Assembly: GCA_013287275.1 (NCBI GenBank)
Contig: JABDED010000006.1
Span: forward strand, 1-63,986
Length of the DNA stretch: 63,986 nucleotides
Source of the DNA: Betaproteobacteria bacterium
Lineage (GTDB): Bacteria > Pseudomonadota > Gammaproteobacteria > Burkholderiales > Burkholderiaceae_D
Reading direction: 5' to 3'
A model generated the notes under the pieces. That model ran no database searches, was not told where the DNA came from, and saw only the letters and a program-made list of their open reading frames with translations. This document shows positions 35,316 through 60,823 of this stretch, in pieces. Position 1 is the first letter of the stretch. Each line of letters begins with the position of its first letter. The translations under genes were made by a program, and so were the position numbers.

Positions 35316-35798
35316 TGCAGTCCTGCAGGCAGATGCCTGGGAGAGCATGACCGCATCTGTAATCTGTAATATCCGTAACTTCGCAATACCGGTTTTATCA
35401 GCAAGATTTCCTGCACTTTGTTTGATTGCCGGCAAACGCATTTCATGCAGTGTTTGCCGCGGCGCACAGCCGCTGATCACATATAGGGCATATACGCCAG
35501 CTTGGCTTTCAGCCCGCACCGGCAACTATTCTCAATAGCAATTTCATCATAAAATTTTGACATTCCACGGTTTGTCGCCTATCTTTGATTAACAAAAGAA
35601 TAATATCTAATTGTTAATTTCTGGCGGTACCGGCTGCGCGCCCGCATGCCCGGAAATGTTTTCCATCGTCTTCCGACTCCACATCTTTTTCCGTGCAGCC
35701 TGTGCGACTCTCCAGGTCAGCTTCTTTTCTGCCGCGCCGGGTTGCTGCGGCAGGACGTCCAGCAAACGCAACCCGCAATGTATTTTGAGGAGCATGCC
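35316..35798. other. Intergenic region without a recognisable gene
   Basis: 483 bases between the lipoprotein gene and the interrupted small gene. An AT-rich part (35,530-35,620) could hold the promoter of the following gene. Open frames present lack ribosome binding sites or motifs. Confidence 0.45.
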
Positions 35799-36318
35799 AT
35801 GTTATCGAAAGCGGCAAGGGATTTCATCCTGCATATCACCAACTAGAACTCATTTCATAAATAGTGGTGAGTGCAAACGAGTCTAGTTGGGATGCAGCGC
35901 TAGGCGGTGAAACAGGGATTTCAGATAGCAAAGCTATCTGCCTGCGCAACGGCACCCGCTTGCAAGCGGGTGTTCCTCGCCCCACACAAAGGGTGGTTCC
36001 CTTTGCTAGCGTCGCAACAACGCGATGCGCCCAAATAGGCCGTTCCCGAAGGGTTTGCCCCCGTACTGGGTATCCCAAATGGCCGGAATCCCGATCCAGG
36101 GGGCAAATGCATCTTACTGATATTTATGAAATGAGTTCTACTCTCACGGCCACTGGGAAGACCCCGAATGGGGCAGGATGCCGGTGAACCAACTACTGAT
36201 CGGCCTGGCCGTGAAGGAATTGGCGAATGGTATCAACGATGTCGAGTTGAAGGGCCATATCCAGAGTGCGGCGGAGAAGGTTGTCGCCAAGAATAGCCAG
36301 AGCGTAGCCAGGGGCTAA
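35799..36318 (+). pseudogene. Small gene split by a MITE insertion
   Basis: An ATG at 35,799 with GAGGAG six bases upstream opens MLSKAARDFILHITN and meets a TAG created by the insertion at 35,844. After removing 35,846-36,140 (element plus one TA) the frame continues through a tyrosine codon into SHGHWEDPEWGRMPVNQLL and on to the stop at 36,318, giving 74 codons. The product would be a small soluble helical protein of unknown family. The 3' part (from the ATG at 36,178) could still be made as 46 residues, but lacks an obvious ribosome binding site. Confidence 0.85.
35846..36138. mobile_element. MITE, 293 bp, with 17-bp terminal inverted repeats and TA target duplication
   Basis: Both ends are perfect inverted copies of GAACTCATTTCATAAAT, and each is flanked by TA. 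No transposase is encoded. Inside are several palindromes: AGATAGC-AAA-GCTATCT, the 20-bp CACCCGCTTGCAAGCGGGTG and CAAAGGG-TGGTT-CCCTTTG. TA duplication fits IS630/Tc1-mariner transposases, which would have to be supplied elsewhere. The disrupted gene is repaired exactly when the element and one TA are removed. Confidence 0.88.
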
Positions 36319-60594: not shown

Positions 60595-60823
60595 TAGTGT
60601 CCTGAGTTAAAAATTCGTCGAAGAAAAAAGATGAAATCATAGGCGGGAACCTTGCCTTGCAAGGCAAGGTCGTTACACAGGCGCGCAGCGGTGCTGCACG
60701 AAACCCCTGTTGCACCTGCGTTGCAAATACTCGCAAGGGGCCCACCCTTGCTCCGTGTTGCGCCTAGCCTGACACTGATTGCATCATTTTTCATTTTCAA
60801 CGAACTTCCAACTCAGGACACTA
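60595..60823. mobile_element. MITE-like element, 229 bp, with imperfect terminal inverted repeats
   Basis: The outer ends TAGTGTCCTGAGTT and AACTCAGGACACTA are perfect, and pairing continues with mismatches for about 44 bases. TA flanks both sides, consistent with a TA target duplication (element proper GTGTCC...GGACAC). Inside lies a perfect 20-bp palindrome, CCTTGCCTTGCAAGGCAAGG. No transposase. It occupies much of the 605-base gap after the chemoreceptor gene; the rest of that gap (60,311-60,594) is AT-rich with no gene. Confidence 0.8.

Follow-up and report, generated by a model that had tools for sequence, protein, structure and literature searches.

A MITE sharing its ends with IS5-family insertion sequences interrupts a 74-codon gene in Undibacterium and carries an exchangeable hairpin module

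The window, as the whole analysed stretch of 63,986 nucleotides is called here, comes from a bacterium of the genus Undibacterium and contains a MITE that sits in a tiny gene of 74 codons and breaks its frame. In all probability, the MITE is of type II, has an IS5-family insertion sequence (IS) as its full-length partner and entered the gene at a TA dinucleotide: an IS5-family transposase supplied in trans would have cut and joined the element, the insertion would have duplicated the TA, and translation would have been brought to an end after 15 codons. The insertion with its ends and target stands on firm ground, and so does the existence of a real gene that it split.

The MITE is 293 bp long (positions 35846–36138, forward strand), contains no transposase gene and is bounded by perfect inverted arms at 35844–35863 and 36121–36140, which are complementary over 20 nt (100%). 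Since these arms include the flanking TAs, the terminal repeat proper is 18 bp, the left copy being located at 35846–35863 on the forward strand and the right one at 36121–36138 on the reverse strand, with the TA target duplication read directly at 35844–35845 and 36139–36140. An earlier reading made from the sequence only had described perfect ends of 17 bp with TA on both sides; the perfection and the TAs stood, while the length had to be corrected to 18 bp. No further occurrence of the 17-mer was detected in the window when up to 3 mismatches were tolerated, and 100 shuffled sequences gave a mean of 0.04 matches, none reaching two. The longest ORF touching the MITE codes for 107 aa and extends out of the element. 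The identity of the element as a MITE, its length of 293 bp, its ends and its TA target, all proposed in the same reading, are borne out by the arms, the family of copies and the uninterrupted relative described below.

The interrupted gene is preceded by a likely ribosome-binding site, GAGGAG, at 35787–35792 on the forward strand, where the relative from Undibacterium sp. Jales W-56 (genome G011) has GGGAG at a similar distance. Its 5′ part (35799–35845, forward strand) starts with the ATG at 35799, comprises 15 codons matching residues 1–15 of the intact relatives, the last of which (AAC) ends at 35843, and the TA, which together with the first G of the MITE forms a TAG stop as codon 16 at 35844–35846. 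The 3′ part (36141–36318, forward strand), supported by its identity to the Jales W-56 protein and by the substitution pattern, consists of the C of a tyrosine codon and one open frame from TCT CAC to GGC TAA at 36142–36318, with 58 codons and the TAA stop. When rejoined in silico, the TA and C36141 give TAC (Tyr) and the frame amounts to 15 + 1 + 58 = 74 codons. Thus both the stop codon at the junction and the passage from a 15-codon start with its GAGGAG site through a tyrosine codon to the end of the tail at 36,318, as stated before, can be read directly, the natural counterpart of this excision being the uninterrupted state in relatives only. The split gene is presumably inactive in the window genome; a restart at the ATG at 36178, leading to a product of 46 aa, is possible.

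With the tail alone as a query, one other genome was found among the 60 searched (own genome included), namely Jales W-56, where the gene is a single uninterrupted ORF of 74 codons with 79% identity to the tail over 56 residues, the codon TAT (Tyr16) at the junction and one TA at the predicted target. A search with its protein of the genome_contigs collection of 84,980 species genomes, a scan that detects close relatives only, resulted in three loci, belonging to Jales W-56 itself and to Candidatus Nitrotoga sp. BS and 1052, whose proteins are 70–71% identical to the query. All three relatives have Tyr16 at the predicted junction, both Nitrotoga genomes using TAC, and the intact homologues are 74–75 residues long. 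The rejoined 74-residue protein is therefore real, as these homologues are contiguous. A profile built from the three intact relatives and the window tail matched the window head, which was outside the profile, at 35799–35867 with an E-value of 2.3e-4, and the window tail at 36133–36312 with 2.9e-35, the tail itself being part of the profile.

The tail and the Jales W-56 gene differ by 36.5 synonymous changes on 38.2 sites (pS 0.956, saturated) and by 22.5 non-synonymous changes on 135.8 sites (pN 0.166); for the head the values are 0.814 and 0.057, based on 15 codons only and with synonymous sites saturated. Since synonymous changes are far more frequent per site than non-synonymous ones, the split gene did encode a real protein, and it has changed in the way that is typical when purifying selection acts on a protein. 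It could be argued that the flanking frames are chance ORFs and that no gene was interrupted, the family being so rare that its profile was found in two of 399 Burkholderiales genomes (own genome and Jales W-56) and the intact relatives matching no model in Pfam or NCBIfam at E ≤ 0.1. This reading is refuted by the intact homologues with tyrosine at the junction and by the pS and pN values, and the chance that it holds is practically nil.

The 74-aa protein had no match in the plasmid or phage collections, and in PHROGs there was one weak match (E 0.018). Its model, predicted from three sequences, is all helical with four helices (mean pLDDT 84.5, pTM 0.67); a fold search with this model yielded no PDB match at E ≤ 0.001, and the best match in a sequence search of PDB had an E-value of 0.76. 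In Candidatus Nitrotoga sp. BS (L046, 3407–6094), the family gene is followed by a gene for a DUF2278 and lamin-tail protein and then by one for a PLD-like protein. The neighbours in Jales W-56 differ from these, so the gene context is not conserved. With regard to an empty site in related genomes, the uninterrupted gene with a single TA was found in Jales W-56, while a site with the same chromosomal neighbours as in the window was not, because the Jales W-56 gene has other genes around it.

The element is one of many. Five copies with both ends, the window copy included, were found in the own genome, an assembly of 3.2 Mb that is 56% complete. Some part of the element was matched in 25 of 43 Undibacterium genomes, although in at least one of these (G022) the match is confined to the nested module described below, and seven genomes yielded 45–60 matching pieces each, which are BLAST pieces and not copies. 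The left-end pattern was present in all ten Undibacterium genomes chosen for the pattern search. The fetched loci contain 72 distinct copies with both ends from at least 11 genomes (73 rows, the near-palindromic copy in L078 having been entered on both strands); identical copies were merged, and a few of the 72 may be insertions that are orthologous between related genomes. TA is present on both sides of 49 of these copies and is lacking on one or both sides of the other 23. In L068 there is a left end with no partner.

Two kinds of reduced versions were also observed. Very short end-to-end versions of roughly 30–50 bp, some of them TA-flanked, occur in L082, L125, L128 (544–593), L130 (2564–2610) and L132 and were left out of the count of 72. 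The copy in L078 (540–698) has 159 bp and is a near-full palindrome, in which the left half of the element is repeated as its own inverse. The element had no match in the plasmid collection. In the open-licence PMC literature, no description of Undibacterium MITEs, nothing relevant on Undibacterium insertion sequences or repeats, and no mention of the 13-base end sequence or of the structural description of the element was found.

The same 18-bp ends with TA outside bound two IS copies in other Undibacterium genomes: one of 835 bp in L121 of genome G003 (939–1773), with the transposase gene inside, and one of 855 bp in L135 of genome G063 (1097–1951), the arms of which, flanks included, are perfect over 22 nt. 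They are 76% identical to each other, and a third homologue with one end kept is present in L136 of G019. The transposase is encoded in two overlapping frames at an A-run and matches PF13340 (6e-32) and PF01609 (6.1e-9, DDE domain), while the IS5-family model NF033580 matches the first frame over its cut-off (6.2e-36) and part of the second frame under it (6.6e-25). There is a further frame break in the G003 copy, so this IS may be decayed; in the G063 copy the second frame reaches the gene end with no stop. All 574 short-word BLAST matches (E ≤ 0.01) between the MITE rows and the two IS fall within roughly 32 bp of one MITE end or the other and none outside the terminal stretches, the MITE having no IS interior. 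Since the ends are all that the MITE and the IS share, the former is classed here as a type II MITE belonging to an IS5-family element. Judging by its TA target and two-frame layout, the IS may be a member of the IS427 group, a TA target habit being known for this group of the IS5 family. These data, which come from sequence comparison, suggest that an IS5-family transposase is the likely mobiliser of the MITE.

TA target sites are also typical of IS630/Tc1-mariner elements, and the MITE, whose inverted ends are short and perfect and whose TA is duplicated, might be thought to derive from a transposon of that kind; a transposase of the IS630 type with the same ends was what the sequence-only reading had expected. 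The IS630 transposase model PF13358 was not found in seven of the ten element-bearing Undibacterium genomes searched (of the 43), and at the 13 PF13358 loci in the other three there were 3-mismatch look-alikes of the ends only, none of these loci having the ends (GAACTCATTTCATnAATA) themselves. The ends were found on IS5-family elements instead, the IS630 expectation failed, and an IS630/Tc1-mariner origin was rejected as very improbable. What speaks against the preferred reading as a MITE of an IS5-family IS is the rarity of the IS, which was found in three of the 43 Undibacterium genomes at E ≤ 1e-20, in one of these partially, the 23 copies with TA missing on one or both sides and the differing neighbours of the Jales W-56 gene. 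The IS was not found in the own genome (56% complete) at the same threshold.

The body of the element is strongly folded, with fold z-scores from −6.6 to −19.5 in ten sampled copies and a mean fold energy of about −149 kcal/mol over the 73 rows. The RNAalifold consensus, obtained from 51 of the 73 rows with lengths of 258–290 and leaving out the window copy (293), is branched, has 80 pairs and is 97.6% paired when scored on the same alignment from which the consensus was derived. In this alignment, 32 pairs are changed on both sides vs 21.4 in shuffles; the covariation score of 0.243 compares with 0.089 for shuffles and with a maximum of 0.070 when slid. Within a copy, the two ends agree even at the variable position of the inverted repeat, which is A–T in 27 and C–G in 18 of 51.

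It has to be considered whether the body is a structured RNA or a transcription terminator kept by the host, for which the transposon ends are merely a vehicle. Its very stable branched fold and strong covariation would fit this, as would the fact that the forward strand is the more stable one in 47 of 73 rows and the reverse strand in 24 (Wilcoxon p 0.0013, the rows not being independent). Against it, G–T and A–C cells are present in similar numbers, 51 vs 41 in the sense fold once four poorly paired pairs of 80 are dropped, and 88 vs 48 in the antisense fold once three of 91 are, so there is no clear preferred RNA strand; with all pairs kept, the sense fold has 153 G–T vs 56 A–C cells, a few pairs accounting for most of them. 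Rfam searches of the window element and of 20 loci gave no family at or above its cut-off for the element or for the module copies: Gut-1 was a sub-threshold match over the nested module of the former (22.7 bits vs a cut-off of 50), the search of the 20 loci gave four other sub-threshold matches, and a known RNA family was rejected for both elements and modules. Moreover, the dispersed TA-flanked copies resemble mobile DNA, and a host-kept RNA or terminator is considered unlikely.

The most interesting part of the MITE, which merits follow-up, is an exchangeable, freely drifting yet complementary hairpin core. This nested double-hairpin module of about 80 nt, with approximate boundaries at 35907–35986 on the reverse strand, was delimited by comparison with sibling copies in the own genome, which have a palindrome CGTCGCGACG of about 10 bp in its place. 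It consists of two hairpins with conserved linkers, and the linker pattern was found in 47 places in 13 of 43 Undibacterium genomes, vs none for a reversed control pattern; the two modules of the window deviate slightly from the pattern and lie outside the 47. The fetched loci contain 35 distinct modules. Their second hairpin, represented by 30 distinct sequences, shows 24 different left arms, and its six pairs are 92.8% Watson–Crick vs 50.8% (maximum 61.1%) with arms re-dealt, 22 of 30 being fully paired. The first hairpin reaches 91.8% vs 50.7% re-dealt over eight pairs and is fully paired in 13 of 32, with 13 of its 16 A–C cells in the outermost pair. The module is found in the other orientation and in another place in sibling MITEs such as those of L052, L055 and L070, as well as in further inverted-repeat contexts of the genus.

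Module copies were also observed in L140–L169 and in L011 (G000:C37) within many repeat contexts, with stems that are highly varied yet complementary; in L151 (G066) there are tandem modules 88 bp apart. In the window itself, a second MITE-like element at 60595–60823 has different ends, TAGTGTCCTGAGTT, with 40-nt arms that are 80% complementary; it carries the same module at about 60647–60717, and its body resembles that of the first MITE. The ends of this element were not seen in any other fetched locus. A 6S RNA gene (L011, 2609–2788, reverse strand, 81.5 bits, past the cut-off) lies near the module copy of that locus and is incidental.

A GTAG tag is the rule for REP palindromes. The other strand of the module starts with GGTGTAG beside the hairpin, much like the GTAG-tagged REP palindromes of RAYT systems (PMC3733652). 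Unlike these, the module has stems that vary widely between copies, and neither the module nor a MITE end was found near any of the 30 Y1_Tnp match rows examined (of 47, in 12 genomes), so that no association pointing to a RAYT/REP origin was seen in these rows. Template switching between inverted-repeat arms is described in PMC7202029, PMC3820800 and PMC8604942, and a process of this kind could yield the covariation of the module with no selection on RNA. Tentatively, and with somewhat less than even confidence, it may be suggested that Undibacterium harbors modular fold-back elements, in which a core of about 80 nt is swapped among unrelated transposon ends and inserted at hairpin tips, its stems drifting nearly freely yet staying complementary, probably because one arm is copied from the other (template switching at quasipalindromes) or because the fold of single-stranded DNA is under selection, and not through an RNA function.

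As an element kind, the locus is a further case of the already known type II MITE, as defined in PMC10969869: like such MITEs, the element is non-coding, has the inverted ends and target duplication of a full IS and resembles it in the ends only. It differs in its branched covarying body and, in some copies, the interchangeable hairpin module. According to PMC6382973, MITEAba12 is likewise a short MITE, whose insertion disrupted hns, and shares identity with a co-resident IS in the ends alone, but it has 113 bp and 9-bp duplications and is predicted to fold weakly (−24 to −27 kcal/mol), in contrast to the longer elements, TA duplications and far stronger mean fold found here. Chunjie from Geobacter uraniireducens and QMITE2 from Coxiella are size-variable families as well, of about 190–235 bp in the accessible text of PMC10969869, where Chunjie is reported to disrupt host genes too and QMITE2 to fold strongly (the legend prints −113.09 cal/mol), although with duplications of 7–9 bp; that text mentions no nested exchangeable module for either. 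The partner IS, with its domains, A-run frames, length of 835–855 bp and TA flanks, is like other IS5-family members, while the MITE, unlike these, has no IS interior.

The locus is a clean natural case: an uninterrupted relative fixes the ends and target of a MITE to the base, and a conserved small-protein family comes to light that would escape notice in the broken genome. As the MITE is linked to a full insertion sequence, its mobilisation is directly testable. The covarying hairpin cores, for their part, form a natural data set on how complementarity is preserved in palindromes whose sequence changes.
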